DNA of 64,000 nucleotides, from NCBI RefSeq assembly GCF_023897015.1, contig NZ_JAMHFY010000020.1, positions 1 to 64,000 on the forward strand, given 5' to 3'. The notes under the pieces were generated by a model, which saw nothing but the letters and a program-made list of their open reading frames with translations, made no database searches and was not told the origin of the DNA. The stretch's first letter is position 1. Each line of letters starts with the position of its first letter. Both the position numbers and the translations under genes were made by a program. Shown here piece after piece: positions 28,176 to 61,717 of this stretch. This stretch comes from Desulfosporosinus nitroreducens. Lineage in GTDB: Bacteria; Bacillota; Desulfitobacteriia; Desulfitobacteriales; Desulfitobacteriaceae.

Positions 28176-28189
28176 AAGGGCAATTGAAT

Positions 28190-28345
28190 ACCTTATTTAA
28201 TAGGTGCCCGCAAGGGATAATAGGGAACCAGGTTGTAATCCTGGACGGACCCACCACTGTAAGTAGATGTTGAAAATGTACATTTGCCACTGGGAAACTG
28301 GGAAGGCGTACATTCTAGTCTATAAGTCAGGAAACCTGCCTATGA
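28190..28345 (+). promoter_or_regulatory. Cobalamin (adenosylcobalamin-class) riboswitch
   Basis: The conserved B12-box landmarks occur in order. GGTGCCCGCAAGGGATAATA lies at 28203-28222, then GGGAA and an AATCCTGGACGGACCCACC stretch at 28238-28256. The CACTGTAA segment is at 28254-28261. GCCACTGGGAAACTGGGAAGGC spans about 28286-28307, and AGTCAGGAAACCTGCC about 28325-28340. It controls the downstream ECF transporter, repressing it when cobalamin is bound. An intrinsic terminator follows. Confidence 0.95.
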
Positions 28346-28367
28346 AATATTGCATAAGGACAAAGGT

Positions 28368-28424: not shown

Positions 28425-29975
28425 ATGAAAAAGATTGGGAATAAAATTGCGAAAGTTACAATTGAAAAACTCGTCTTTCCGCATGAAGAGAAACCTGCGC
28501 TTAAAAATATTGATTTTGAAATCAATCAGGGGGATTTTATTGTCATTACCGGGGGGGTAGCCTCTGGAAAATCGATTTTACTGCATTCCATCACAGGCGC
28601 TATCCCTCACTACCATAACGCGGAATTAACGGGAAGAGTCACAATCATGGGGCAAAACATTAAAGATATGCGCCTCAATAAAATGTCTGATTATGTGGGA
28701 TATATGATGCAAGAACCCCAAAATCAAATTATTGGTTTGGATGTTTACGAGGATGTTGCATTCGGCCTCGGTAATCTGGAAATTCCCTTAAAAGAAATTG
28801 ATCAGAGGGTTAAAGACACCTTGGAATTTGTGGGTCTATCGGGCTATGAAAGTAGGCAAACCGCTTCTCTTTCAGGCGGTCAAGCTCAACGAGTCGTTTT
28901 GGCCAGTGTTTTAGCCCTCAACGCCCCGATTTTAATTCTTGACCAGCCAACCGCTGAGCTTGATCCCCAGGGCCGAAATGAGCTTTATAAGCGGTTAGGT
29001 CAATTGAATAAAACTCAGAATCTAACCATTGTTTTGGTTATGGATCGAATTGAAGAAGTCCTCAACTATGCCAACAGAGTCTTCTATATTCAATCAGGTG
29101 AAATTGTTAAACAGTATTCGCCAGAGGAATATTACATGGAGCAAATCGAACATCGCAAAGAAAAGATAAAATACCTCACTTCTTTCAATTTGAATCATGT
29201 TAAGTCTAGTGAAATGATTGCGAAGATTACCGATGTCTTCTATCAGTACAAAAATGATTTGCTGGGTTGTGAAGACATTAATTTAGATATTTTTAAGGGG
29301 GACTTTTTAGCGATCATAGGTTTAAACGGCTCTGGAAAATCAACCTTAGCTAAGCTGCTTATCGGTCTCTTAAAGCCCTCTAAAGGCGAGATTAAAGTGT
29401 TTAACCAGCCTCTGAGTAAGGAAAAACTGGCAGAGATCCGGTCACGGGTGGGCTTTCTATTTCAAAACCCTGATTATCAGATCTTTGCAAGCACAGTAGA
29501 AGAAGAAGTTGGATTTTCACTGAAGCTAAGGGGTGATGTTAATGAAAAAATAGAACAGAAGATTGAGGAGTCATTGGAATTTGTGGGATTGCTGGAATAC
29601 AAGAAAATGCACCCTCATCGCTTAAGCCGTGGCCAGCGCCAGCTTTTGGCATTAGCCTCCATCCTCGTCAGTGATCCAGAATTCATTATCGCCGACGAAC
29701 CGACTTCAGGACTTGACGAGAACCAAGGGTATATGATCATGGATAAACTCTTTCATTTATCGAAAAATGGCAAAACAATCCTACTTATCACCCACGATCT
29801 GACCATGGCAAAAGACTATTCTAATAGGTTAGTTGCCCTGCATAATCACCGCATTCAACTAGATATTCCGACAAGAGATCTCGATCAACATCTAGATACG
29901 CTTAAAGAGATTGGTCTGAATTTCCATAATCTTATTTCATTCAGGGAGGTTCAAGATGGGACTTTCGAAGCTTGA
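28425..29975 (+). CDS. ECF transporter fused ATPase (EcfA1A2)
   Basis: 516 residues with two complete ABC ATPase modules (about 8-240 and 265-500). Module 1 has Walker A GGVASGKS, signature LSGGQ, and a Walker B reading LILDQPTAELD, where Gln replaces the catalytic Glu. Module 2 has GLNGSGKS, signature LSRGQ and the normal IIADEPTSGLD. One ATP site is therefore probably degenerate. The fused ATPase next to its own T and S subunits is typical of a dedicated (group I-like) energy-coupling-factor importer. It overlaps the EcfT gene by 20 nt. Confidence 0.9.
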   Translation: MKKIGNKIAKVTIEKLVFPHEEKPALKNIDFEINQGDFIVITGGVASGKSILLHSITGAIPHYHNAELTGRVTIMGQNIKDMRLNKMSDYVGYMMQEPQNQIIGLDVYEDVAFGLGNLEIPLKEIDQRVKDTLEFVGLSGYESRQTASLSGGQAQRVVLASVLALNAPILILDQPTAELDPQGRNELYKRLGQLNKTQNLTIVLVMDRIEEVLNYANRVFYIQSGEIVKQYSPEEYYMEQIEHRKEKIKYLTSFNLNHVKSSEMIAKITDVFYQYKNDLLGCEDINLDIFKGDFLAIIGLNGSGKSTLAKLLIGLLKPSKGEIKVFNQPLSKEKLAEIRSRVGFLFQNPDYQIFASTVEEEVGFSLKLRGDVNEKIEQKIEESLEFVGLLEYKKMHPHRLSRGQRQLLALASILVSDPEFIIADEPTSGLDENQGYMIMDKLFHLSKNGKTILLITHDLTMAKDYSNRLVALHNHRIQLDIPTRDLDQHLDTLKEIGLNFHNLISFREVQDGTFEA

Positions 29976-30693
29976 TCCCAGGACTAAACTCGCCTGGTAT
30001 GTTCTGATGATCTATTTTTCACTGATTAGTGGGACTGTTGTTCAGTTGTGTCTGGTTTTATTGGCAGGCATTATGGCCTCGCTAATCTTAACAGGTTCGT
30101 TGAAACAGTATAAGGTTGTCATTTTAATCTTATTGTTTTTGGGACTTCAGATATTGGTCGTGCAGCTGATCTTCTGCCGGGAAGGCGTTCTAATCTACCA
30201 ATGGGGAATTCTTAAAATATACAGTGAAGCTTTACCACTAGCGATCACTGGCCTCCTTAAGGCTAGCATTATTGTTTTTGCAAGTATGCAATTTTTCACC
30301 TCGGCCTCACCTCAAGAGTTTACCTTGATGCTCATGAAATTCAAAATACCTTACCGTTTTGCCATGTTAGTAGGACTAAGCGTCCGTTTCCTCCCGCTCA
30401 TGAAAGCAGAATATATATCCATAATCGATAGCCAACGTACTCGGGGCCTTAGAATGGAAAGCGCCTGGGACAATCTCAAAGGTATTTTCCCAACCTTTCT
30501 ACCTTTTTTATATCGTTCCGTTCGACGTGCCACGGAAACTGCACTGGCCATGGAGTTAAGAGGTTACGGACGAACTAAAACCCGTACCTTTACTTCAAAT
30601 ATAGCGCTTAAGCCTTACGATACTGTTTTAATTTCTGCGATGTTAGTGGTGATAATCATTAGCCTTACTAGCAAGGTATTACCATTAATATAA
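29956..30693 (+). CDS. ECF transporter transmembrane coupling protein EcfT
   Basis: 245 residues with five to six membrane helices and the CbiQ/EcfT family pattern. The start LDPRTKLAWY is typical. Two coupling-helix motifs with Ala-Arg-Gly-type sequence are visible (SQRTRGLRME and AMELRGYGRTKTR), which contact the ATPases. GGGAGG lies 6 nt before the ATG, inside the ATPase gene. It couples ATP hydrolysis to the substrate-binding protein. Confidence 0.9.
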   Translation: MGLSKLDPRTKLAWYVLMIYFSLISGTVVQLCLVLLAGIMASLILTGSLKQYKVVILILLFLGLQILVVQLIFCREGVLIYQWGILKIYSEALPLAITGLLKASIIVFASMQFFTSASPQEFTLMLMKFKIPYRFAMLVGLSVRFLPLMKAEYISIIDSQRTRGLRMESAWDNLKGIFPTFLPFLYRSVRRATETALAMELRGYGRTKTRTFTSNIALKPYDTVLISAMLVVIIISLTSKVLPLI

Positions 30694-30720
30694 TTAGATC
30701 AATTTAGGAGGAGAATTTAA

Positions 30721-31254
30721 ATGAACGAAAAAATCTTCAGAACTGACACAAAAGCACTAGTAGGCTCTGTCATCATCGGGATTGTAATGCTAATTATGAT
30801 GCAGGTTACAGGTCGTATCGATGCAATATTGGATCCAACCCTCTTACTTCTTAATGGTACATGCTGGGCATTCTTTACAGGTCTGATTGTCTTAATGTAC
30901 AGACAACCCGCGGGTATTATCGCTGGAGTAGTAGAAGCCGTAGTAGCCATGGCTACGGGCTATTCACCACTGGGTTTTTTCTTCTTATTCGCCAATGTCA
31001 TCGGATCGATTGTCTACTCACTAATTTCCAGTAGATTTTCTATGGAGAAATTAAGCCACCATATAATAGCAATGCTGGGGACTGCAGTGACAGGCAACCT
31101 TTGCGTTATGGTAGGATTGATTTATGTCTTTCACCTTGACTGGAAGATCGCACTATTATCTTCAAGCATAACCGCCTTCGTTGGAACAATTGTTGCAGGA
31201 ATCCTGACAAAGAGTATCTACGGCTCCTTACAAAAATCAGCATTGCTTCAATAA
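30721..31254 (+). CDS. ECF transporter S component, predicted cobalamin/cobinamide
   Basis: 177 residues, about five to six membrane helices, weakly conserved as is usual for S components. The upstream B12 riboswitch predicts that the substrate is cobalamin, a corrinoid precursor or cobalt. CbiM/CbiN cobalt proteins are absent, which favours a corrinoid importer of the CbrT sort. That is inference from context. AGGAGGAG precedes the ATG by 7 nt. It is the last gene of the operon. Confidence 0.75.
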   Translation: MNEKIFRTDTKALVGSVIIGIVMLIMMQVTGRIDAILDPTLLLLNGTCWAFFTGLIVLMYRQPAGIIAGVVEAVVAMATGYSPLGFFFLFANVIGSIVYSLISSRFSMEKLSHHIIAMLGTAVTGNLCVMVGLIYVFHLDWKIALLSSSITAFVGTIVAGILTKSIYGSLQKSALLQ

Positions 31255-31338
31255 AAAGTTGGCTTTTGTTGTTTCGTCGTTCTCGTACACTTCTGGTTCA
31301 GTAAATACTTTCAACGGATAAACATTGCAAAGGAGTAT

Positions 31339-31370
31339 CGCCCATCACTTTTTCACATAAGTGGTGGGCG
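31339..31370 (+). terminator. 12-bp stem after ECF operon
   Basis: CGCCCATCACTT (31339-31350) pairs with AAGTGGTGGGCG (31359-31370), with one wobble. The U tract is missing, so it may be a weak terminator or 3'-end stabiliser. Confidence 0.5.
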
Positions 31371-31379
31371 CAACTATAA

Positions 31380-31406
31380 TTGACATATGCCACAGAAATG
31401 TAATAA
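31380..31406 (+). promoter_or_regulatory. Promoter of the mutS2-like/rsgA-like operon
   Basis: TTGACA (31380-31385) with TAATAA at 31401-31406, preceded by TG. The 15-bp spacing is short, so the -10 call is tentative. The leader from here to the first gene is about 460 nt. Confidence 0.5.
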
Positions 31407-31432
31407 ACTAGGTTATACCTAAAAATGAGAGG

Positions 31433-31477
31433 ATGGTTTTTTTGTTAAATGTGTCTGTAATGGTGATTTTCAACTAA
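31433..31477 (+). CDS. Short upstream ORF in attenuator-like leader
   Basis: ATG 31433 opens a 14-residue hydrophobic peptide, MVFLLNVSVMVIFN, ending at TAA 31477. GAGAGG abuts the ATG but lies 9 nt before TTG 31442, which would give a 12-residue peptide. Hairpins begin about 30 nt after its stop. Short upstream ORFs like this sense ribosome-stalling antibiotics in erm, ABC-F and tet(M)-type leaders. The same role here is inference. Confidence 0.5.
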   Translation: MVFLLNVSVMVIFN

Positions 31478-31505
31478 ACAGTTGAGAGAGGTTACTTTAT
31501 AAAAC

Positions 31506-31564
31506 GTGGGTTTTAAACCTGCTTTTTTAAGTGTACCTTTCTGAAAGCGCAACGTTTGCGCTTT
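31506..31564 (+). terminator. Two successive leader hairpins
   Basis: The first stem pairs 31506-31511 with 31517-31522 and is followed by six Ts (31523-31528), an intrinsic-terminator form. The second pairs AAAGCGCAA (31544-31552) with TTGCGCTTT (31556-31564) and is followed by one more T. They lie just after the short ORF and could attenuate transcription. Confidence 0.55.
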
Positions 31565-31686
31565 TGGATAACGCCTTACAGATTACTTCCTACAATAACC
31601 ATTTGAGTTATATCAGTGTCAACCTTTGTCGATAAGACAACAAAGCTGACATTGAAACTATTGCGATTATTATCGTATAGTTTTGT

Positions 31687-31727
31687 AGAGTGTAACGGGC
31701 ATGTCCTGTTACACTCTATTTATTTTT
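31687..31727 (+). terminator. Strong leader terminator
   Basis: AGAGTGTAACGGG (31687-31699) pairs over 13 bp (one wobble) with CCTGTTACACTCT (31705-31717). ATTTATTTTT follows. It sits 150 nt ahead of the first gene, so the operon must be read through it. Confidence 0.75.
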
Positions 31728-31768
31728 CTCAATATAGTTATGGTGATTTTATCGTCAGTTAAAATCAT

Positions 31769-31841
31769 TGCCCACAGGAGTATTCTGCGTGTTTTTGGGA
31801 ATTAAATGATCCTGAAAATAAGGTAATCTCTCTTGTGGGCA
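31769..31841 (+). promoter_or_regulatory. Long-range 12-bp leader stem before ribosome binding site
   Basis: TGCCCACAGGAG (31769-31780) pairs with CTCTTGTGGGCA (31830-31841) across a 49-nt loop, then TTTTC. It closes 14 nt before AAGGAGG of the MutS2-like gene. It may be a final attenuator or translation-control element. Confidence 0.5.
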
Positions 31842-31868
31842 TTTTCATTGTTATAAGGAGGATTTTTG

Positions 31869-33818
31869 ATGAACGCAAACAATACACTGGAATTTAATGT
31901 TATACTTGAAACTTTAGCCGAACACGCACTTTCCCAAAAGGCAATGGAAAAATTGCTCTCACTAAAGCCATTTTTAAGTGAGCGAGAGTGCAAATCCAAA
32001 ATGCAGGAAACAACAGAGGCGCGCAAAATTTTAGAGGGTATAGGCACGCCGCCACTGGCATCAATGAAAGAGCTTGATAAAATTTTGGATTTAACTGTGA
32101 AAGGCTCTATGCTGACCCCTGAACAGCTCACAAGTATCTGTAGTTTTATTTCTTCAGGCAAAAGAATGAAGAAATATCTTAAAAAGGCTGAGTCTTTCAA
32201 TGCGGACATAGCGTTTTATGGTCTTTCTTTCAGTCCGCTGGATATGCTTTTTGAGGAAATTGAGCGCTGTATCAGAAATGAAGCGGTTGACGATGGTGCT
32301 TCTCCTGTCCTTCGTGATATACGCAGAAAAATAGAGAACACAAAATCTGCCGTTAAAATGAAGCTTGATGGTATCCTGCGCAGTAAAAAAGAATGGTTCA
32401 CAGATGGATATGTCACCATCCGTAATGGTCGGTTTGTATTGCCGGTTAAAAAGGGCTATAAAAATCAGTTAAGCGGAACAGTCATTGATACTTCAAGCAC
32501 TGGCAGTACCTGTTTTATTGAGCCTACTGCAGTTAGAAAGCTGCAGGAGGAACTGGCCATTTTACAAATTGATGAAGATAATGAGATTAGAAAAATATTA
32601 TATACCCTTACGGTACTTGTTGATGAGCATATTAATGAGTTGAGAATAAACAAGGACTGCATGGAAACATTGGACTTTATATTTGCCAAGGCAAAGCTGT
32701 CTATAGAGATGAAAGCAGTGCCTGTGTCCATTACAACGGAACGAAAAATCATCATAAAGCAGGGAAGACACCCTTTATTGAAGCCAGACCTATGCGTTCC
32801 TCTTGATTTTGAAATCCGAGGGGGTCTGGGTGATGACGCCATTAACGGAGTTGTGATTACTGGGCCGAATACAGGCGGAAAAACCGTTGCCTTAAAAACC
32901 ATTGGCTTACTATCAATTATGGCACAAAGTGGACTTCATGTTCCTGTGTCGGTTGGCAGCGTATTTTGTATGCACAATAGCATTTTTTGCGATATCGGTG
33001 ATGGGCAAAGTATTTCAGAAAATCTATCCACTTTTTCATCCCATATCCAAAATATTGTAGCTATTCTAAAAGAGGTATCGGGGGAAAGTCTTGTTTTGCT
33101 TGATGAGTTAGGCTCCGGTACAGACCCTGCTGAGGGAATGGGACTGGCAATTGCAATTTTAGCTGAATTAAATCAGAGAGGCTGTCTTTTTGTTGCGACC
33201 ACCCATTACCCGGAAATAAAGGATTTTGCCAAGAACACAAAAGGACTTATGAATGCACGAATGGAGTTTGATCGCGAAAACTTACAGCCTTTATACAAGC
33301 TGCAAATTGGTGAGGCTGGAGAAAGCTGTGCCTTATACATTGCCCAAAGATTAGGATTTCCGGGCCATATGCTGAAGCGTGCCCAAATGGAAGCCTATGG
33401 CGGTAGATCCTCTGGGTCAAGAGATAGACCAACGATTCTGTTTGAGGAGGATAACCCTAAGATAGAGACTGTTTCCAAGAGCAAAATTCAAAAAGAAATT
33501 CCAAAGGAAAAATCACCCACACGGAGCGAAAGCTTTAATATAGGTGACAGTGTAAGGGTTTACCCCCAAAAATTGCTGGGTATTATTTACAAGAGGACCA
33601 ATGAAAAAGGCGAGCTTGGAGTGCAGATAAAAGATAAGAAGCAGATTATCAATCACAAGCGGATTAAGCTTTTTATCCCTGCAAGCGAACTTTACCCTGA
33701 GGATTATGATTTTTCGATTATTTTTGATACGGTGGAAAACCGCAAGGCAAGACACCAATTAGAAAAAGGGCACGATGTAGTGATAGAATATGAGGAGGAT
33801 TTGAATTTTAATGATTAA
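31869..33818 (+). CDS. MutS2-like ATPase lacking the Smr domain
   Basis: 649 residues. The N-terminal lever/clamp region (1-290) is MutS2-like. The ABC ATPase carries Walker A TGPNTGGKT near residue 335, Walker B LVLLDELGSG near 411, and TTHYPEIKD. A KOW-like small barrel (about 545-605) follows, then a short acidic tail. Full MutS2 is near 785 residues and ends with a Smr nuclease domain; that domain is absent here. MutS2 in Bacillus binds and splits collided ribosomes. A nuclease-free version acting on ribosomes is inferred. ATG 31869 has AGGAGG 7 nt upstream; TTG 31866 is also possible. It overlaps the rsgA-like gene by 8 nt. Confidence 0.85.
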   Translation: MNANNTLEFNVILETLAEHALSQKAMEKLLSLKPFLSERECKSKMQETTEARKILEGIGTPPLASMKELDKILDLTVKGSMLTPEQLTSICSFISSGKRMKKYLKKAESFNADIAFYGLSFSPLDMLFEEIERCIRNEAVDDGASPVLRDIRRKIENTKSAVKMKLDGILRSKKEWFTDGYVTIRNGRFVLPVKKGYKNQLSGTVIDTSSTGSTCFIEPTAVRKLQEELAILQIDEDNEIRKILYTLTVLVDEHINELRINKDCMETLDFIFAKAKLSIEMKAVPVSITTERKIIIKQGRHPLLKPDLCVPLDFEIRGGLGDDAINGVVITGPNTGGKTVALKTIGLLSIMAQSGLHVPVSVGSVFCMHNSIFCDIGDGQSISENLSTFSSHIQNIVAILKEVSGESLVLLDELGSGTDPAEGMGLAIAILAELNQRGCLFVATTHYPEIKDFAKNTKGLMNARMEFDRENLQPLYKLQIGEAGESCALYIAQRLGFPGHMLKRAQMEAYGGRSSGSRDRPTILFEEDNPKIETVSKSKIQKEIPKEKSPTRSESFNIGDSVRVYPQKLLGIIYKRTNEKGELGVQIKDKKQIINHKRIKLFIPASELYPEDYDFSIIFDTVENRKARHQLEKGHDVVIEYEEDLNFND

Positions 33819-34875
33819 TTTAATGGATTATGGTTTTATACCAACAATGACCATAGAAGATACTAGCTGTATTCCGGCTAGAATAACAGCTGTGCACAAA
33901 GAACGGTATGAAATAGCCTGTGAATATGGGATAACCTATGCAAAGCCCAAGACAAGCATTTATTACGGTCGAGGAAATGAGACTTTTCCCACAACAGGTG
34001 ATTTTGTTCTGATTCAATATAACAACAGCGGTGATAGTTTAATAACGAAAACCTTAGAGCGAAAATCTTTCTTTTCCAGAAGAGATCCAACTCCCGGACG
34101 GGGTGAGCAGGCTGTCTCTGCTAACTTTGATTATGTGTTCATCATGGCTTCCCTCAATATGGATTTAAATGTTAAACGAATTGAACGATATCTTACACTT
34201 TCATGGCAAAGCGGAGGGATTCCTATAATAATTCTAACTAAAGCTGATTTAGGGGAAGATTATTCCGAACAGGTTCGAGCAATTAAAAAAATTGCTACTG
34301 GCACAGCAGTTTATGCCATCAGTACAAAAACAGGCTATGGACTCTCCGAATTAAGTGCTTATCTCAAACCACGCAAAACCATCGTTTTGTTAGGCTCATC
34401 CGGTGTTGGAAAATCAAGCCTTGTTAATGCACTTGCGAGAAAGGAAATCATGACTGTGAATTCTATTCGTGAGGATGACTCCAAAGGACGCCACACCACT
34501 ACCCACCGTCAACTAATCAGGCTAAACAGCGGTGTTATGATTATAGATACCCCAGGTATGCGTGAGCTGGGTATGTGGGACGTCAGTGTTGGCTTGGGAG
34601 AAGCGTTTGGTGATGTCGAAAGATATCTTGGTAGATGTAAGTTTTATGATTGCAAGCACAATAATGAACCTGGCTGTGCAATAAAATCAGCGATTGTAAA
34701 TAGTGAGCTTCCACAGGAACGCTGGGATAGCTACCTGAAGCTTAAAAAGGAAGCTAAGTTTTCCGATGATAAAGCCGGCTACATCCAAGAAAAAAACGAG
34801 TGGCATAAATCTATTGCTAGATATAGCAAACAACGCAAGAAAAATGGAGAATCCATGGGCAGAATGGGAAGATAA
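33811..34875 (+). CDS. RsgA-like circularly permuted ribosome GTPase
   Basis: 354 residues with the RsgA/YjeQ layout. An N-terminal OB-fold-type domain precedes a permuted GTPase with motifs in the order G4 (TKAD, 143-146), G1 (GSSGVGKSS, 185-193), G2 (THTTHR region) and G3 (DTPG, 246-249). The zinc knuckle has Cys276, Cys281, His283 and Cys289. RsgA matures and checks the 30S subunit. It is translationally coupled to the MutS2-like gene rather than sitting in a housekeeping cluster, so it may be a specialised paralogue. Whether another rsgA exists cannot be seen here. Confidence 0.85.
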   Translation: MINLMDYGFIPTMTIEDTSCIPARITAVHKERYEIACEYGITYAKPKTSIYYGRGNETFPTTGDFVLIQYNNSGDSLITKTLERKSFFSRRDPTPGRGEQAVSANFDYVFIMASLNMDLNVKRIERYLTLSWQSGGIPIIILTKADLGEDYSEQVRAIKKIATGTAVYAISTKTGYGLSELSAYLKPRKTIVLLGSSGVGKSSLVNALARKEIMTVNSIREDDSKGRHTTTHRQLIRLNSGVMIIDTPGMRELGMWDVSVGLGEAFGDVERYLGRCKFYDCKHNNEPGCAIKSAIVNSELPQERWDSYLKLKKEAKFSDDKAGYIQEKNEWHKSIARYSKQRKKNGESMGRMGR

Positions 34876-37155: not shown

Positions 37156-37319
37156 TTATCTCGATCTAATCCTTTAACTACATCAACTAGTGGCTTTTTA
37201 GGTTGAATGATGCTTATGATACACCAAGACTTGTGAGGTTGGTGAAGCATATATCCTGTGTGATATACTTATTTCATGTACTACTTGGGTAATTAAACAT
37301 GCTAGGAGTTCTGTCAATC

Positions 37320-37985
37320 ATGAAGTTAAATGAACTGAGGGAAATCCCGCTTTTAAGAGCTTTAAGCGATGAACAATTGGAAATTCTTGAAGGCAATGCT
37401 CAGAAAAGAGATTATAAAAAGAATAAACGTATCTTTGAACCAGACAGCAAAGATAATTTCATCATGATCGTGCTGGAAGGTAAAGTCCGGATTTATCTCG
37501 CCTATCCGGATGGAAAAGAGTTCACCATCTCTTTTTTGGAACCAGGTGATATTTATAGCAGTCATTCAAAGACCTTTGCCGAAGCAAGAGAAGCTACTAA
37601 GATTCTAGCAATAAACGCTAAGGCTTTTCACTTATTTATGCTTAATAACCCTACCATACTCATTAGTATGGTTAAAGCTTTAGGAGATAGCTTAGGGAAT
37701 ACACTTCGGATCATTGAAAATCTGGCGTTCCTTGATATCGATAAACGACTTGCTCGCTTTTTACTGGATGCAGCCAAGGAAAAAGGAGTTATTGGACAAG
37801 AGGGCACGTTTATAAATCTAGGTTTATCAGTAGAGGATATTGCCCTAGCCGTTGGGAGTTCGCGGCAGACCGCTTCGATGCTCTTGAATCGGTGGGAAAG
37901 GGATGGGGTTATCAGACGTAATCGCAAAACAGTGTTCTTGCTGGATATGCTTAAGTTGCAAGAATTGGGAGGAAGAACTGAGTGA
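37320..37985 (+). CDS. cooA: Crp/Fnr family regulator, CooA-like
   Basis: 221 residues: effector domain (1-125), long dimer helix, and Crp-type helix-turn-helix (SVEDIALAVGSSRQTASMLLNRW, about 165-190). Sequence around EPGDIYSSHSKTFAEA aligns with the heme-binding loop of CooA, the CO sensor. The His77 equivalent (His82) is present. The Cys75 equivalent is Ser80. It precedes cooS, so CO-dependent activation is likely. The lost Cys would alter only the oxidised-heme ligand, if heme is bound. ATG 37320 has AGGAG 11 nt upstream; ATG 37299 is weaker. Confidence 0.7.
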   Translation: MKLNELREIPLLRALSDEQLEILEGNAQKRDYKKNKRIFEPDSKDNFIMIVLEGKVRIYLAYPDGKEFTISFLEPGDIYSSHSKTFAEAREATKILAINAKAFHLFMLNNPTILISMVKALGDSLGNTLRIIENLAFLDIDKRLARFLLDAAKEKGVIGQEGTFINLGLSVEDIALAVGSSRQTASMLLNRWERDGVIRRNRKTVFLLDMLKLQELGGRTE

Positions 37986-38020
37986 ACTCGTTCAGCTAAA
38001 ACTGAACATCGAAGTAGAAT

Positions 38021-38060
38021 AAGGAACACCCACTTGAAGTGGGAGTCTCGGAATTGATAA
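38021..38060. repeat. Hairpin repeat copy 1 (downstream of cooA-like gene)
   Basis: AAGGAACACCCACTTGAAGT starts this 40-bp element, and the palindrome CCCACTTGAAGTGGG lies inside. Related copies are at 40141-40181 and 40219-40260. All three sit in spacers of the cooA-cooS-cooC cluster. Similar hairpins form the ends of IS200/IS605-type elements; no transposase is present. Confidence 0.6.
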
Positions 38061-38087
38061 ATATATATTGTTGTCGAAAGAGTATGA

Positions 38088-38117
38088 AAACCGTCAGATA
38101 TTTGATGGTTTTTTTAT
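38088..38117 (+). terminator. Terminator upstream of cooS
   Basis: AAACCGTCA (38088-38096) pairs with TTGATGGTTT, followed by a T tract. It lies 60 nt before cooS, so either it ends the cooA-like transcript or cooS expression depends on read-through. Confidence 0.7.
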
Positions 38118-38177
38118 TTGTGATGACCTAAGATGATTGTCAGAGAAGAGAAACTTTTTCGACAAGGAGAGGATAAG

Positions 38178-40142
38178 ATGTCAAGACAAGTATTAGTTAC
38201 TGATCTTACAATGGATACTGGGGTACAGGAATTATTAGTGAAAGCAGAACTGGAAAATATAGAGACAGCTTTTCAAAGGGCGAAGGAGCAAGAACCCCAT
38301 TGTAAATTTGGATTAACGGGTGTTTGCTGCCGCCGTTGTCTTCAAGGACCCTGCCGAGTGACTTTTAATGGGAATAAAGGGGTAAAACGTGGAGTTTGTG
38401 GGGCTACAGCAGACCAGATTGTGGCTCGTAATTTACTGTCCCTGATTGTGGAAGGCACGACTCCCCACGTAGAACATGCTCGGGAAATACTCCACACCCT
38501 TTTGGAAACCGCCGAAGGGAAAGCTCCATATGAAATTAAGGGGAAAGAAAAACTTATCAGTATTGGCAAAAAACTAGGATTGACGGTTGATGGGGTAGAG
38601 TTAGATAAATTAGCCAAAGAAGTTGCTTTAATTGCTTTACAAGATTTTCAACAACAATCCGGAGTATCTAACTGGTTACGCCTTCGGGCACAAGATCAAT
38701 CGATTGAAACCTGGAAAAAACTGAATATATTGCCCTCCAACGCTCACTTAGAAATAGCCAATGCCATCAATAAAACAGCTATGGGCTGTGAGAGCGATCC
38801 TGTTAGTCTTTTGCTGGGGATTATGAAAATGGGATTAGTTGAAGGCTATGATGGCCTGCATCTTTCTACAGATCTCCAGGATATTTTGTTTGGTACTCCA
38901 CGGCTTGTCAAAACCCAATACAGAATGGGCGTTATTAAAGAGGAGTATGTCAATATTGCCGTTCACGGTCATATTCCCATGGTCTCTGAAAAAGTTCTAG
39001 AGTGGAGCCGAAAATTAAATAATGAGGCCAAAGCATTAGGGGCTAAAGGAATTAACATTGTAGGAATTTGTTGCAGTGCCAATGAACTTTTAATGCGTCA
39101 AGGAGTTTCCGTGGCGACAAACTATGCAAGTCAAGAATTAGCGATTATTACCGGTGCCTTAGAGGCAATGGTCGTAGATGCTCAATGTATCATGCCTGGC
39201 CTGGCTCAAGTGGCGGAATGCTATCACACAGAACTTATTTCGGCATTGCCAAATATTAAGATCGAAGGAGCAAGCCATGTAGATTGGACACCGGAAGATG
39301 CGGATAAAATGGGAGAGGAGATTGTCCGTCGTGCTCTTGCCCACTATCCGGAGAGAGACCAATCTAAAGTCCAGATTCCAGCGGGTACAGTAGAAGCCTA
39401 TGCAGGTTTTTCTGTTGAGCAGATTGTTGAGCTTTTGGCTACGTTAAATGGGCAAGATCCCTTACTCCCCCTGATAGAAGCCATCGCTACAGGCGACATC
39501 TTAGGTGTCGTTGCTATTGTGGGATGCACAAATCCCAAAGTAAAACAAGACTGGGCTAATACGGAAGTGGCCAAAGAACTTATGAGGAATAATGTTTTAA
39601 TCGTTGCTTCCGGATGTTCAGCTCACTCCTTAGGGAAAAATGGCTTATTGTCACCCAATGGCTTGCAATATTGCGGCGAAAAACTGGCCAATGTTCTGAC
39701 AGCCATTGGGCAAGCAAACGGTTTACCGGCCTTACCTCCTGCTCTTCATATGGGAAGTTGTGTTGATAATTCCAGAATTGATGATTTACTGGTTGCCCTA
39801 GGGGATAGAATGGGTGTGGCTGTGAGAGAATTACCCGTGGCAGGCTCCAGTCCTGAAAATCATAGTCCTAAAGCCTTATCCATTGGAACCTTCTTTATTG
39901 CTCAGGGAGTGGATGTTCACATTGGGGTTAATGCACCAATTACAGGTTCTCCTCTTGTTGAACAAGCCCTTACAGCTAATAAAGGCGAGTTCCCCGTGAC
40001 TACTGATGAGCTTTTCGGGGGAAAACTAATTTACGAAGCAGACCCCATTCAGGCTGCCCAAACAATGATTGGTCGTATTATTCAGAAACGTAAGGCTTTG
40101 GGACTTGTTTGCCCGGAAACCACGGAAAGTGCTAAAAAATAA
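38178..40142 (+). CDS. cooS: Anaerobic CO dehydrogenase catalytic subunit
   Basis: 654 residues, full-length for a monofunctional Ni-Fe CO dehydrogenase. It oxidises CO to CO2 with two electrons. The D and B cluster cysteines are Cys42, Cys50, Cys51, Cys54, Cys59 and Cys74. The C-cluster ligands are all visible: His in AVHGHIP, Cys in VGICCSAN, VDAQCIMPG, VGCTNPK, ASGCSAHS and HMGSCVDNSR. AAGGAGAGG precedes ATG 38178; the frame extends to 38133 without a ribosome binding site. CooF and an energy-converting hydrogenase are not adjacent, so the electron acceptor is unknown. Confidence 0.95.
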   Translation: MSRQVLVTDLTMDTGVQELLVKAELENIETAFQRAKEQEPHCKFGLTGVCCRRCLQGPCRVTFNGNKGVKRGVCGATADQIVARNLLSLIVEGTTPHVEHAREILHTLLETAEGKAPYEIKGKEKLISIGKKLGLTVDGVELDKLAKEVALIALQDFQQQSGVSNWLRLRAQDQSIETWKKLNILPSNAHLEIANAINKTAMGCESDPVSLLLGIMKMGLVEGYDGLHLSTDLQDILFGTPRLVKTQYRMGVIKEEYVNIAVHGHIPMVSEKVLEWSRKLNNEAKALGAKGINIVGICCSANELLMRQGVSVATNYASQELAIITGALEAMVVDAQCIMPGLAQVAECYHTELISALPNIKIEGASHVDWTPEDADKMGEEIVRRALAHYPERDQSKVQIPAGTVEAYAGFSVEQIVELLATLNGQDPLLPLIEAIATGDILGVVAIVGCTNPKVKQDWANTEVAKELMRNNVLIVASGCSAHSLGKNGLLSPNGLQYCGEKLANVLTAIGQANGLPALPPALHMGSCVDNSRIDDLLVALGDRMGVAVRELPVAGSSPENHSPKALSIGTFFIAQGVDVHIGVNAPITGSPLVEQALTANKGEFPVTTDELFGGKLIYEADPIQAAQTMIGRIIQKRKALGLVCPETTESAKK

Positions 40143-40181
40143 GGAACACCCACTTATAAAAGAGGGAGTTTCAGGATTGAT
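40141..40181. repeat. Hairpin repeat copy 2 (at cooS stop)
   Basis: Begins with the same 15 bases as copy 1 (AAGGAACACCCACTT) and keeps a GGGAGT…GGATTGAT tail. The stem is imperfect. It overlaps the last two bases of cooS. Confidence 0.55.
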
Positions 40182-40218
40182 GAACTCATTAACAATTGAC
40201 GAAACAGACAACGGGGCT

Positions 40219-40260
40219 CTCACTCCCACAATGTAGAAGTGGGAGCCTGCTATTGATAAA
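40219..40260. repeat. Hairpin repeat copy 3 (before cooC)
   Basis: CTCCCAC…GTGGGAG stem followed by CCTGCTATTGATAAA, matching the GAAGTGGGAG…ATTGATAAA part of copy 1. The cooC ribosome binding site AGGAGGGGG follows directly. Confidence 0.55.
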
Positions 40261-40275
40261 GGAGGGGGTGAGTAT

Positions 40276-41064
40276 ATGAGGGAAAAAAGCATCAAAATTG
40301 CAATCTCGGGTAAAGGTGGCGTGGGTAAAACGACGTTGTCATCACTACTATGCTATCTGTACGCACGAGATGGACAGAGAGTTCTGGCGGTAGATGCTGA
40401 CCCTGATGCCAATTTAGGAACGGCTCTAGGCTTTCCTCCAGAATTGTTGACAAAGCTAACCGCTATTTCTGAAGAGCGAAAACTTATCAAAGAACGTACC
40501 GGAGCAGAACCGGGAACGATTGGAGCCATTTACAGCCTTAATCCCCAGGTGGATGACATTCCGGATACCTATGTTGCTGAATATCGGGGAATTAAACTTT
40601 TACGGATGGGGTCGATTACCCAAGGAGGAACCGGCTGTGCCTGCCCGGAAAATACCCTCTTAAAAAGTCTCTTGGATCATATTGTCCTCGAAAGAAATGA
40701 AATTGCTATTCTGGATATGGAAGCAGGACTTGAGCATTTTGGACGGGGGACAGCCAGGGGTGTGGATGCCTTTATTGTAGTGGTAGAACCTGGACGACGC
40801 AGTATTGAAACAGCCCATGCCGTAGTAAAACTTGCCAATGATCTAGGGGTTCAGAATGTCTATGCAGTCGTTAATAAAGTGCATGAAGGGCAATTCGCTG
40901 AGCTTGAACAAGAGATTAACTTTCTGACGATTTTAGGACATTTCCCCTATGATCCGGTTGTTGTAGATGCTGATTTTCATGGCAAAAATCTTTTTGATCT
41001 AAGTGAAAGCTTTGTTCAAGAAGCTGAAAAGATTAAAGAGAAAATTGATTCCTTGCTAAGGTAG
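40276..41064 (+). CDS. cooC: CO dehydrogenase nickel-insertion ATPase CooC
   Basis: 262 residues, MinD/ParA-type P-loop ATPase. The deviant Walker A GKGGVGKTT is near residue 10-18. Walker A' AVDADPDANLG and a GCACPE Cys pair (about 119-121), which binds Ni/Zn at the dimer interface, follow. CooC uses ATP to load nickel into the C-cluster of CooS. It lies 133 nt after cooS with an AGGAGGGGG site before its ATG. A terminator closes the cluster. Confidence 0.92.
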   Translation: MREKSIKIAISGKGGVGKTTLSSLLCYLYARDGQRVLAVDADPDANLGTALGFPPELLTKLTAISEERKLIKERTGAEPGTIGAIYSLNPQVDDIPDTYVAEYRGIKLLRMGSITQGGTGCACPENTLLKSLLDHIVLERNEIAILDMEAGLEHFGRGTARGVDAFIVVVEPGRRSIETAHAVVKLANDLGVQNVYAVVNKVHEGQFAELEQEINFLTILGHFPYDPVVVDADFHGKNLFDLSESFVQEAEKIKEKIDSLLR

Positions 41065-59014: not shown

Positions 59015-59203
59015 TTAACTTTTCATAGTGTTATTTAGACATTATGCAATTGTCATTCGTAAAAGATATTTTTAATCTTATAGTGAAAATTCATGTGAAG
59101 TTGAGAAAAAACCAAGATGAGATCTGTCTCTTGTCGGTTGGGTACTTATTCTGAAGTGACAAGCATAGGGTATTTACAAGCTATTAACTGGAGGTGGATA
59201 ATC

Positions 59204-61717
59204 TTGGAGACTTATTTTTACGATGATCCTAGAATTAGAAAATGGATTAATCAGATCATTGAAAGAATCTTCACCGTTTGCATATTAACGGGGGTTGGTT
59301 CGGATGAAGAATTTCAAAAGGGTTGTCAAATCGTCATGAAACTTACAATGTTATTACAGGATATCCCAAGTTTTCCGTCGGAATTCTTAACTGATGGAGT
59401 TAAACAACTGATAGAACAACAGCTTCCTGATTCCCGTGTTATTAATAATTTTCCTAAATTCCAAGTTACCATGGATAGAATGTTACATGAGGGAATATTG
59501 AAAGTCACTGATTCCCAAAAGAAAGAGGCTTTCAATAGCATTTTGACTACTGTAAATACTAAAGATAATAACATAAAACCTCATGATAGCTATACCGAGG
59601 GTCTTGTGGAAGCATCTTGCATAGAGGGCGTGACCAATTCTGTACTTCCTTACCCTGCCAAGCTTCCTATATCGTACTCAGACATACAGCATACAAAAGC
59701 AGAAACCCAAGCCCAGGCGAAAGCAGATGTCCAGGCACTCAAAGAGGATCTAGCGCAGGCAGAAGCCGAAGCGAAAGCAGATACCCAGGCACTCGAAGAG
59801 GCTCTACCCCAAGCAGAAGCCCAAGCGAAACAAGATATCCAGGCACTCGAAGAGGCTCTGGCCCAGGCAGAAGCCGAAGCGAAAGCAGATACCCAGGCAC
59901 TCGAAGAGGCTCTGGCCCAAGCAGAAGCCCAAGCGAAAGCAGATACCCAGGCACTTGAAGAGGCTCTAGCCCAGGCAGAAGCCCAAGCGAAAGCAGATAT
60001 CCAGGCACTCGAAGAGGCTCTAGCCCAAGCAGAAGCCCAGGCGAAAGCAGATGTCCAAGCACTCGAAGAGGCTCTGGCCCACGCAGAAGCCCAAGCGAAA
60101 GCAGATACCCAGGCACTCGAAGAGGCTCTAGCCCAAGCAGAAGCCCAAGCGAAAGCAGATACCCAGGCACTCGAAGAGGCTCTAGCACAGGCAGAAGCTC
60201 AAACCAAAACAGATGCTCAGGCACATAAAGAGTCTCTAGTCCAAGCAGAAGCCCAAGCGAAAGCAGATACCCAGGCGCTCAAAGAGGCTCTAGCCCAGGC
60301 AGAAGCCCAAGCGAAAGCAGATACCCAGGCACTCGAAGAGGCTCTAGCCCAAGCAGAGATGCAGGCGAAAGCAGATGTCCAGGCACTCGAAGAGGCTCTG
60401 GCCCAGGCAGAAGCCCAAGCGAAAGCAGATACCCAGGCACTCGAAGAGGCTCTAGCACAGGCAGAGATGCAGGCGAAAGCAGATGTCCAGGCACTCGAAG
60501 AGGCTCTGGCCCAGGCAGAAGCCGAAGCGAAAGCAGATACCCAGGCACATAAAGAGTCTCTAGTCCAAGCAGAAGCCCAAGCGAAGGCAGATGTCCAGGC
60601 ACTCGAAGAGGCTCTAGCGCAAGCAGAAGCCCAAGCGAAGGCAGATGTCCAGGCACTCGAAGAGGCTCTGGCCCAGGCAGAAGCCCAAGCGAAAGCAGAT
60701 ACCCAGGCACATAAAGAGTCTCTAGTCCAAGCAGAAGCCCAAGCGAAAGCAGATACCCAGGCGCTTAAAGAGGCTCTGGCCCAGGCAGAAGCCCAAGCGA
60801 AAGCAGATACCCAGGCACTCGAAGAGGCTCTGGCCCAGGCAGAAGCCGAAGCGAAAGCAGATACCCAGGCACATAAAGAGTCTCTAGTCCAAGCAGAAGC
60901 CCAAGCGAAGGCAGATGTCCAGGCACTCGAAGAGGCTCTAGCGCAAGCAGAAGCCCAAGCGAAGGCAGATGTCCAGGCACTCGAAGAGGCTCTGGCCCAG
61001 GCAGAAGCCCAAGCGAAAGCAGATACCCAGGCACTTGAAGAGGCTCTGGCCCATGCAGAGGCCCAGGCGAAAGCAGATATCCAGGCACTCGAAGAGGCTT
61101 TAACCCAAGCAGAACAAGCCAAGGGAGAAGTACAGTCCCTAGAAGAGGCTCTAGCTCAAGCAGAGATGCAAGCAAAAGCGGACGCCTTGGCATTTGCTGA
61201 TGCACTTGCCCAGGTTGAAACGAAGCTAGAAGCTATAACCAAGCTAGAACGCGATGAATTAGCTAGAGCTAAGTCTAGCACGAATGATTATTTCATAGAA
61301 CACTTGCGTAAGGCAAATAGTTCGTTCACTGGAAATGAGCATCAAACGGTTGAACTTATTAAAGTCTCAGATTTATTTACATCTATAGACTCCAAAATTT
61401 CTCAATTATTCAGCACTTCTCTAGTTCCTCCGCAGGCGGATCTTCTAGGACAGGTTCTAACTAATATTTTCCCAAAAGGGACTGTCTATTGGAACAAAAC
61501 TTTAATGGGTCAGAAGTTCCTGGCCCAAATTGAAGATATCTTAATTTACCTTTATGATCCCGAGCATCCGTGTGATCTGAAAAAGTTTAATAGGGTTGGC
61601 TGGAAGGTCTTAGTTTGCAGTAATGAAGATCTAACGTTTCCTCGCAGATTGGAAAGACAAATTAGACAAATTCAGCGTTCAGGAAAGGTGTCCGCAACAG
61701 GGGGGACATCTCTGTGA
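59204..61717 (+). CDS. Protein with about 28 tandem 18-residue helical repeats
   Basis: 837 residues in three parts. The N-terminal helical domain (1-170) starts METYFYDDPRIRKW. The middle (about 180-680) is about 28 copies of an 18-residue unit, consensus KADTQALEEALAQAEAQA, with variants such as AHKESLVQAEAQ. The C-terminal domain (about 690-837) is globular-looking (DLLGQVLTNIFPKGTVYWN, then EDILIYLYDPEHP). Eighteen residues equal five alpha-helix turns, so a long straight helical rod is predicted. No signal peptide. GGAGGTGG precedes TTG 59204 by 6 nt. The function is unknown. Confidence 0.8.
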   Translation: METYFYDDPRIRKWINQIIERIFTVCILTGVGSDEEFQKGCQIVMKLTMLLQDIPSFPSEFLTDGVKQLIEQQLPDSRVINNFPKFQVTMDRMLHEGILKVTDSQKKEAFNSILTTVNTKDNNIKPHDSYTEGLVEASCIEGVTNSVLPYPAKLPISYSDIQHTKAETQAQAKADVQALKEDLAQAEAEAKADTQALEEALPQAEAQAKQDIQALEEALAQAEAEAKADTQALEEALAQAEAQAKADTQALEEALAQAEAQAKADIQALEEALAQAEAQAKADVQALEEALAHAEAQAKADTQALEEALAQAEAQAKADTQALEEALAQAEAQTKTDAQAHKESLVQAEAQAKADTQALKEALAQAEAQAKADTQALEEALAQAEMQAKADVQALEEALAQAEAQAKADTQALEEALAQAEMQAKADVQALEEALAQAEAEAKADTQAHKESLVQAEAQAKADVQALEEALAQAEAQAKADVQALEEALAQAEAQAKADTQAHKESLVQAEAQAKADTQALKEALAQAEAQAKADTQALEEALAQAEAEAKADTQAHKESLVQAEAQAKADVQALEEALAQAEAQAKADVQALEEALAQAEAQAKADTQALEEALAHAEAQAKADIQALEEALTQAEQAKGEVQSLEEALAQAEMQAKADALAFADALAQVETKLEAITKLERDELARAKSSTNDYFIEHLRKANSSFTGNEHQTVELIKVSDLFTSIDSKISQLFSTSLVPPQADLLGQVLTNIFPKGTVYWNKTLMGQKFLAQIEDILIYLYDPEHPCDLKKFNRVGWKVLVCSNEDLTFPRRLERQIRQIQRSGKVSATGGTSL
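59710..61150 (+). repeat. 54-bp tandem repeat array
   Basis: The DNA unit is 54 bp (18 codons), consensus around GCGAAAGCAGATACCCAGGC, tandemly repeated about 26-28 times. Many neighbouring copies are identical or nearly so, which implies recent expansion and likely length variation by recombination. Long open frames on the other strand are a by-product of the period. Confidence 0.9.

Follow-up and report, generated by a model that had tools for sequence, protein, structure and literature searches.

Bacteria usually sense antibiotics that block protein synthesis by means of a ribosome stalled on a tiny upstream ORF (uORF). The hflXr/rli80 leader of Listeria monocytogenes was reported to combine such a short uORF, of 14 amino acids and with an RLR motif, with alternative structures and premature termination ahead of the gene for a ribosome-splitting-factor paralogue (PMC6310831). 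Very short uORFs were likewise reported for the cplR, vmlR, vmlR2 and lsaA leaders, with the consensuses MR[I/M] for CplR, MIN for VmlR, MK[L/Q] for VmlR2 and MAGN for LsaA; in the cplR leader, the uORF is sequestered in a stem, a terminator lies near the gene and induction occurs through antibiotic stalling, by what was reported as translational attenuation for which premature termination is not essential (PMC10201436). Finally, the uORFC-6-1 motif upstream of hflX, described mostly from Bacillales, is a covarying structure that follows a drug-type uORF encoding an RLR peptide (PMC8632094).

Here, we analyzed a leader located within a 64,000-nucleotide stretch of Desulfosporosinus nitroreducens DNA (hereafter, the window), ahead of an operon that encodes a MutS2-like ATPase and an RsgA-like GTPase. 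Comparison and folding supported a layout with a uORF, a helix P1 between this uORF and a downstream strand, a competing helix AT2 in which that strand pairs with the 5' arm of the second terminator (T2), and a pair of terminators ahead of the gene, and we read the leader as a ribosome-mediated transcription attenuator over the MutS2-like/RsgA operon, with a probability of about 0.8. It resembles hflXr/rli80 in its short uORF, its alternative structures and its predicted premature termination before a putative ribosome-splitting-factor paralogue, but its target is a MutS2 relative, its two terminators share one antiterminator strand and the peptides of its class are MSxVVLN-like, with no RLR (PMC6310831). 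With cplR it has in common a very short uORF that a stem sequesters and a terminator close to the gene, and it differs from the reported translational mode and in the family of the target (PMC10201436); with uORFC-6-1 it shares a covarying structure after the uORF, but neither the RLR peptide nor the hflX target (PMC8632094). The mechanism itself is of an established kind; what appears to be new is this class of leader, which many Gram-positive bacteria share, together with its target and the one-strand, two-terminator layout. Searches of titles, abstracts and passages of the open-licence PMC literature returned no description of this leader, of its peptides or of attenuation of a Smr-less MutS2, and the names mutS, bpsA and rsgA do not occur in the main text of the uORFC-6-1 paper (PMC8632094).

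The features of the locus are as follows, all on the + strand.

31380..31409, +, promoter TTGACA-18-TAAACT (promoter scan and leader comparison), the left-hand limit of the conservation between genomes
31427..31432, +, Shine-Dalgarno (SD) sequence GAGAGG of the uORF (sequence)
31442..31477, +, uORF of 11 codons with a TTG start, MLNVSVMVIFN and stop (leader alignment and uORF rule test)
31454..31463, +, P1 5' strand TCTGTAATGG within the uORF, pairing with 31574-31582
31506..31522, +, T-tailed hairpin between the uORF and the switch strand (terminator scan)
31573..31580, +, AT1 5' strand, computed only, pairing with 31691-31700 in the T1 5' arm
31574..31582, +, P1 3' strand CCTTACAGA (comparison of 15 rows)
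31574..31589, +, switch strand CCTTACAGATTACTTC (P1/AT2 comparison), overlooked in the original prediction
31579..31589, +, AT2 5' strand CAGATTACTTC, overlapping the P1 3' strand at 31579-31582
31685..31719, +, terminator T1 (terminator scan and fold)
31769..31841, +, 12-bp long-range stem, best read as terminator T2 (fold; counterparts in related leaders)
31777..31787, +, AT2 3' strand GGAGTATTCTG in the T2 5' arm (comparison of 15 rows)
31869..33818, +, Smr-less MutS2-like ATPase of 649 amino acids (profiles, structure model and tree)
33811..34875, +, RsgA-like GTPase paralogue, second gene of the operon (profiles; one other RsgA match in the genome)

Promoter, terminators and upstream ORF

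Given that the region 31255-31870 carries seven promoter-like sites on both strands, compared with 1.8 ± 1.4 in shuffled sequences, a promoter-like site alone is little proof. The TTGACA promoter that had been proposed ahead of the gene was present, and its TTGACA stood at the same place in 18/18 compared leaders (that of the window included), with mostly differing DNA upstream. The alignment of these 18 leaders, i.e., that of the window and 17 others, begins at the promoter and was good among 16 and partial for two distant ones. A second promoter-like site, TTCACA-17-TATAAT (11/12), lies just upstream, at 31352-31380, outside the conserved stretch.

Between the uORF and the gene, intrinsic terminators were found by scan (T1) and by fold (T2), and related leaders also contain hairpins with T-runs. 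The terminator scan returned two terminator-like sites, the T-tailed hairpin at 31506-31522 and T1, compared with 0.4 ± 0.8 in shuffles; they correspond to the T-tailed hairpin (31506-31528) and the strong terminator (31687-31727) of the original prediction. A second hairpin, placed by it at 31544-31564, was also present, and in the minimum-energy fold both hairpins lie inside the P1 loop. The predicted 12-bp stem at 31769-31841 was recovered by folding. It is missing from the scan list because its loop is too long for the rule of the scan, and the U-tract of T2 is weak in the genus of the window (CAUUUUCAUU) and stronger in several distant relatives. The hairpin at 31506-31522 may be an RNA polymerase pause site, which we raise as an idea only: a U-rich-tailed hairpin followed the uORF in 22/43 leaders compared with 100/645 shuffles at a threshold of -3 kcal/mol, in a count whose script did not pick up the T-tailed hairpin of the window itself.

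A reading in which ordinary terminators accompany a chance ORF, and the MutS2-like gene is transcribed from a promoter of its own after T2, could draw on the promoter-like hexamers also present at 31646-31681. These precede T1, however, and the scan of 31255-31870 returned no promoter-like site on the + strand after T1. Furthermore, conservation starts at the promoter, upstream of which the DNA differs between most genomes, and both the compensated pairs described below and the occurrence of the leader in distant taxa speak against chance. We therefore rejected this reading as very improbable.

The whole leader folded at -155.5 kcal/mol (z = -9.87 against 100 shuffles), and so long and structured a leader might also be expected of a small-molecule riboswitch or a T-box. 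Against this, Rfam at the gathering score gave no match in the window leader nor at the leaders of 11 related loci, and the conserved core consists of the SD, the uORF and the complement of the uORF; this alternative was likewise discarded, its chances being slight in the extreme. Elsewhere in the window, a cobalamin riboswitch (RF00174, 96.7 bits) was found at 28185-28357, ahead of an operon that looks by eye like one for a cobalt/ECF-type transporter (28425-31254) and that ends just before the leader of the MutS2-like gene. Elsewhere again, at 37299-41064, genes that look by eye like those for a CooS-like carbon monoxide dehydrogenase and a CooC-like ATPase stand behind one for a CRP/FNR-type regulator, and an ORF of 866 residues (59117-61717) contains AQAKADxQALEEALAQAE-like repeats, nearly identical to each other, in a long array.

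With regard to the short ORF, which had been placed at 31433-31477, the frame held and the start did not. The in-frame ATG at 31433, which would give 14 codons, sits directly against the SD at 31427-31432; the TTG at 31442 is GTG in locus L007, and the corresponding place after the SD is ATG in distant relatives, so that the uORF is better read as starting at 31442. As a rule drawn from these same leaders, we defined a uORF as an SD followed by 5–12 codons with M[SL], a Val and an Asn before the stop. This was found in 50/64 leaders with enough upstream DNA (16 of the 64 being near-identical), in 25/1280 dinucleotide shuffles and in 0/10 sequences upstream of canonical mutS2; in all 50 leaders, the ORF matching the rule was the one expected from the alignment. 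Four loci whose upstream DNA was absent, short or wrongly started (L091, L223, L227 and L228) were excluded from the count. The 14 leaders failing the rule have, by eye, an SD-preceded ORF starting with M-S, M-L or M-T: twelve of 3–9 codons (MLEVVLN, MSASVQI, MSEVVHYRL, MSAVGTK, MSV, MSVASI, MSESVFR, MSAVVQNQP, MSVSL, MSDLVL, MTTGVLN and MSVIVLL) and two longer ones of 20 and 26 codons (L095 and L092).

Two uORF layouts were distinguished. Type I uORFs have 11 codons (e.g., MSVLSVMVVLN) and characterize the clade of the window except L236, while type II uORFs mostly have 7 codons (e.g., MSEVVLN or MLGVVLN). In both types, an Asn codon stands just before the stop, in 41/50 listed uORFs altogether. 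The RLR motif of HflXr-type macrolide leaders was found in none of these 50 uORFs nor in those listed from the pattern scan described below.

Many of these peptides are rich in Val, Leu or Ile (MLNVSVMVIFN, MSVVVLN), as would befit a uORF that senses a shortage of charged tRNA, for instance for valine or leucine, in the manner of the trp/ilv-type amino-acid attenuators. Several others have only one or two such codons, however (MSESVTN, MSGVVHN, MSAVVQN, MSVSL), and the targets, namely MutS2-like proteins, RsgA, the branched-polyamine synthase BpsA, GNAT and a methyltransferase with an MFS pump, include no amino-acid synthesis. We consequently rejected this explanation as improbable.

Competing helices in type I and type II leaders

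The type I comparison comprised 15 distinct rows of three segments, obtained from 26 leaders. P1 was paired in 95.6% of 135 cells, compared with 20–42% in slid registers, and AT2 in 97.3% of 150 cells, compared with 32–57%. Since positions 31579-31582 are common to both, the two helices are mutually exclusive. The P1 pair 31459-31577 occurs as AU, UA, UG and CG across rows, and on its uORF side it falls at the third position of valine codons (GTA, GTT or GTC; Glu GAA in L079), so that the substitution leaves the peptide unaltered and is answered by a fitting base in the partner strand. In AT2, seven rows have A-U at 31585-31781, another seven have G-C and one has G-U. Covariation scores were 0.138 for P1 compared with 0.032 in shuffles (0/500 as high) and 0.130 for AT2 compared with 0.082 (3/500 as high). 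Only one pair per helix changes on both sides, and the two measures least fooled by relatedness showed no excess: pairs changed on both sides numbered 1 compared with 1.0 in shuffles for P1 (499/500 as high) and 1 compared with 0.7 for AT2 (331/500), and further pair types numbered 3 compared with 2.0 for P1 (94/500) and 3 compared with 3.1 for AT2 (500/500). With one compensated pair in each of P1 and AT2, the covariation check that had been proposed across homologous leaders did not refute the prediction.

Folding simulations of the window leader agreed with an exclusive switch, with P1 in the free transcript and AT2 when the uORF was masked. The free transcript gave a P1 probability of 1.0 and an AT probability of 0. 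When the uORF was masked as by a ribosome, AT1 reached 0.97 with only the T1 5' arm out, and AT2 reached 1.0 with only the T2 5' arm out. Once the hairpins were complete, T1 and T2 won at equilibrium even with the uORF masked; antitermination would therefore have to be kinetic, i.e., take place before each 3' arm emerges. In the 15 type I leaders, P1 was at least 0.9 in 13 when free, and AT2 exceeded 0.5 in 11 when the uORF was masked, compared with 5/300 when the switch strand was shuffled. L070, L074 and L220 did not switch, L071 reached 0.45, and in L219 AT2 already stood at 0.41 in the absence of a ribosome.

In type II leaders, the last uORF codons and the stop (GTTCTTAACTAA and variants) pair with a downstream strand ending in GAACA or similar. 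Cognate pairing between uORF and complement scored 513, compared with 474.9 ± 10.2 for permutations, none of 20000 being as high in a test that ignores relatedness, and 230/294 cells were paired compared with 218.2 for strands dealt among leaders. This test comprised 21 distinct uORF ends from 26 leaders; uORFs of any length other than 7 codons were left out, as were L039, L082 and L093. The continuing strand, paired with the 150 nt that immediately precede the gene and contain T2, scored 275 compared with 246.4 ± 10.4, an excess reached by 102/20000 permutations, again with relatedness ignored. Here, 19 distinct cores from 27 leaders were used, leaving out L039, L082, L086, L093, L096, L097, L229, L236 and the 11-codon leaders. 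Anchors were placed by hand for L038 and L088 in both tests and for L075 in the continuing-strand test; in the uORF/complement test the L075 anchor was misplaced, which lowered the score, and the row was retained. Compensated examples are L231 (ATGAACAC/GTGTTCAT), L234 (GGATACAC/GTGTATCC) and L235 (GGACACAC/GTGTGTCC). In L082 (positions 868-1517), the complement lies, by eye, unusually far from the uORF, as if about 150 bases had been inserted.

No cognate excess was found between the type II strand and the T1 region (16486/20000 permutations as high), so that support for the part assigned to T1 comes from the folding of the window leader. Duplex energies between the uORF and downstream sequence in single leaders, compared with 300 shuffles, were mostly weak (rank 3 or better in 10/50 leaders and 15 or better in 19/50, median z of -1.4, the window leader ranking 27th) and our case is therefore not built mainly on them.

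A stalling attenuator requires helices that exclude each other, compensated pairs and an SD-preceded uORF that is conserved in distant genomes; these features support the ribosome-stalling architecture originally proposed. By analogy with the hflXr, vmlR and cplR leaders, from which stalling, inducer and read-through are carried over, such an attenuator would work as follows. Without an inhibitor, the ribosome would leave the uORF, P1 would form, and T1 and T2 would end transcription. With an inhibitor, a stalled ribosome would cover the uORF and leave the switch strand free; this strand, acting as a kinetic antiterminator, would capture the 5' arms of both terminators as soon as these emerge, and RNA polymerase would then read into the MutS2-like/RsgA operon. 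On the same analogy, the attenuator is probably induced by an antibiotic, and a ribosome-targeting inhibitor would be the expected trigger of the window leader.

The Smr-less MutS2 paralogue and its operon

In Bacillus subtilis, MutS2 was reported to split stalled ribosomes, with its ATPase as the most critical part; its absence was reported to cause hypersensitivity to chloramphenicol, tetracycline and erythromycin, and KOW or SMR mutations only a very modest sensitivity to erythromycin (PMC10897456). The MutS2-like protein of the window passed the TIGR01069 (MutS2) cut-off of 400 with 582.7 bits, over profile positions 5-509 of 790 only. A search for a C-terminal Smr domain gave no match in this protein, for which Pfam returned MutS_V only, at E values up to 0.001. 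KamC, a lysine 5,6-aminomutase reactivase, scored 201 bits, below its cut-off of 300, and MutS relatives without Smr may serve several roles.

The closest solved structures were MutS2 chains (8QPP/8R55 and 7QV3). A structure model built with 20 relatives (mean pLDDT 83) contains the MutS2 core and ATPase, followed by a linker of low confidence (512-553); a small C-terminal domain made up of five strands lies where MutS2 has its KOW domain, and the model ends after a helix; judging from the model, this small domain may be a KOW domain. The first 13 Foldseek hits of the model were MutS2 entries, including MutS2 on a collided disome (7qv3), and identity was 41% over the Foldseek-aligned part of 7qv3_w. 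The protein is therefore like B. subtilis MutS2, a member of a ribosome-rescue family, in its core and ATPase fold (7QV3 and 8QPP chains), but unlike it has no SMR domain, carries the low-confidence linker and small beta domain instead, and belongs to a separate clade of patchy distribution. A tree built from 10 canonical and 40 Smr-less proteins separated all of the latter from the former by a branch supported at 100/100, in keeping with a clade of their own as judged from these sequences. Rows from the same genus (L001 compared with L016/L018) and from the same family (f18) are scattered in this tree, which suggests horizontal transfer.

Smr-less MutS2 proteins were identified, by alignment of the C-terminal domain, in 31/398 sampled Bacillota genomes (29/356 good ones), and in narrower samples in 21/54, 1/35, 1/10 and 9/100 genomes. 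Among 60 relatives, 14 genomes besides that of the window hold 15 copies of 87–95% identity, three more have relatives of 58–59% identity, and G001, G004 and G014 have fragments; G006, from the genus of the window, has two copies of leader and gene on different contigs (L006 and L031). The leader DNA had no match in plasmids; the protein matched 27 plasmid records, of which the best four, Smr-less relatives, were the starting point of the comparison. Two annotated records list these genes as 'endonuclease MutS2' and as 'DNA mismatch repair protein MutS'. PADLOC returned no match for the MutS2-like protein and weak GTPase/ATPase matches only for RsgA.

The genome of the window contains three further matches to the MutS2-like protein, including a full-length MutS2 frame, besides the other RsgA match, so that both genes of the operon look like accessory paralogues. 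RsgA was considered as a constant partner and rejected, as among the loci checked only that of the window (L001, L040), L002 and L156 have RsgA. By analogy with B. subtilis MutS2, the Smr-less protein most likely splits or clears stalled ribosomes; as an inducible copy, it would be a putative dedicated version for resistance or tolerance, much as HflXr is of HflX (PMC6310831).

Genes behind the leader class

For a search blind to the downstream gene, we scanned 257 billion bases with the pattern GTTCTTAACTAN{78,108}GTTAAGAACA, which comprises only a type II uORF end and its complement and is strict enough not to match the type I leader of the window itself. At least 118 stretches were found, compared with a chance expectation of about 4 by our own arithmetic for even base composition, and the 80 titled ones are, judged by their titles, Bacillota. 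The pattern was present in 5/398 genomes, all 5 among the 31 with a MutS2-like gene, and a reversed-pattern control was found in 0/398.

Among the 118 matches listed, 91 have a Smr-less MutS2 family match within 4 kb on the same strand (tblastn), 15 have a BpsA-like gene downstream (tblastn, with Pfam BpsA_C checked in L156 only), 7 end before a gene and 5 are others. Of the latter, L164 has a BpsA-like gene on the other strand, L132 precedes a GNAT acetyltransferase (PF13527), L120 a gene that looks by eye like GNAT, and L153 a methyltransferase (PF13649) with an MFS pump (PF07690), while L195 ends within a gene that has no Pfam match. The L156 operon encodes BpsA (PF01861), SpeD (PF02675) and RsgA (PF03193), the last of which recalls the second gene of the window operon; in this locus, from Virgibacillus salexigens (L156:2600-4075), a leader of this class thus stands ahead of BpsA and then SpeD and the RsgA paralogue, a 30S GTPase.

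That the targets include paralogues of ribosome factors would also fit a general sensor of translation stress, in which ribosome-repair genes (MutS2-like, RsgA) are induced whenever a ribosome is slow or has collided on the leader, with no drug specificity; the uORFs are very short and variable, mostly of 5–11 codons, and RNA pairing explains part of their conservation. However, Asn precedes the stop in the 41/50 uORFs noted above although the segment of the uORF that pairs is not the same in types I and II; this points to selection acting on the codons or the peptide, and families that often modify or export drugs also stand behind this leader. We consider such a general sensor unlikely, although it keeps an appreciable share of the probability. 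Returning to the attenuator as a drug-responsive one, the company of these genes, together with the analogy to known leaders, suggests antibiotic induction and resistance. More tentatively, at somewhat less than even odds, this previously unreported drug-sensing leader class, with a uORF close to MSxVVLN-stop, may control an accessory resistance regulon of Bacillota. Its members would be a Smr-less MutS2 that splits ribosomes stalled by the drug, a paralogue of RsgA, BpsA, in one case accompanied by SpeD, and enzymes of modification or efflux, and a single strand would disarm the two tandem terminators.

If this is true, MutS2 relatives would be the second family, after HflXr, of inducible ribosome-splitting resistance factors, and branched polyamines would be linked to the protection of the ribosome from an inhibitor. 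A widespread ribosome-rescue or resistance factor, present in the 31/398 sampled Bacillota genomes, is predicted among genes named as MutS or MutS2. The leader could be used as a sensor to find the inducing antibiotic, and leader searches of this kind can reveal resistance genes with no prior knowledge of the protein family.
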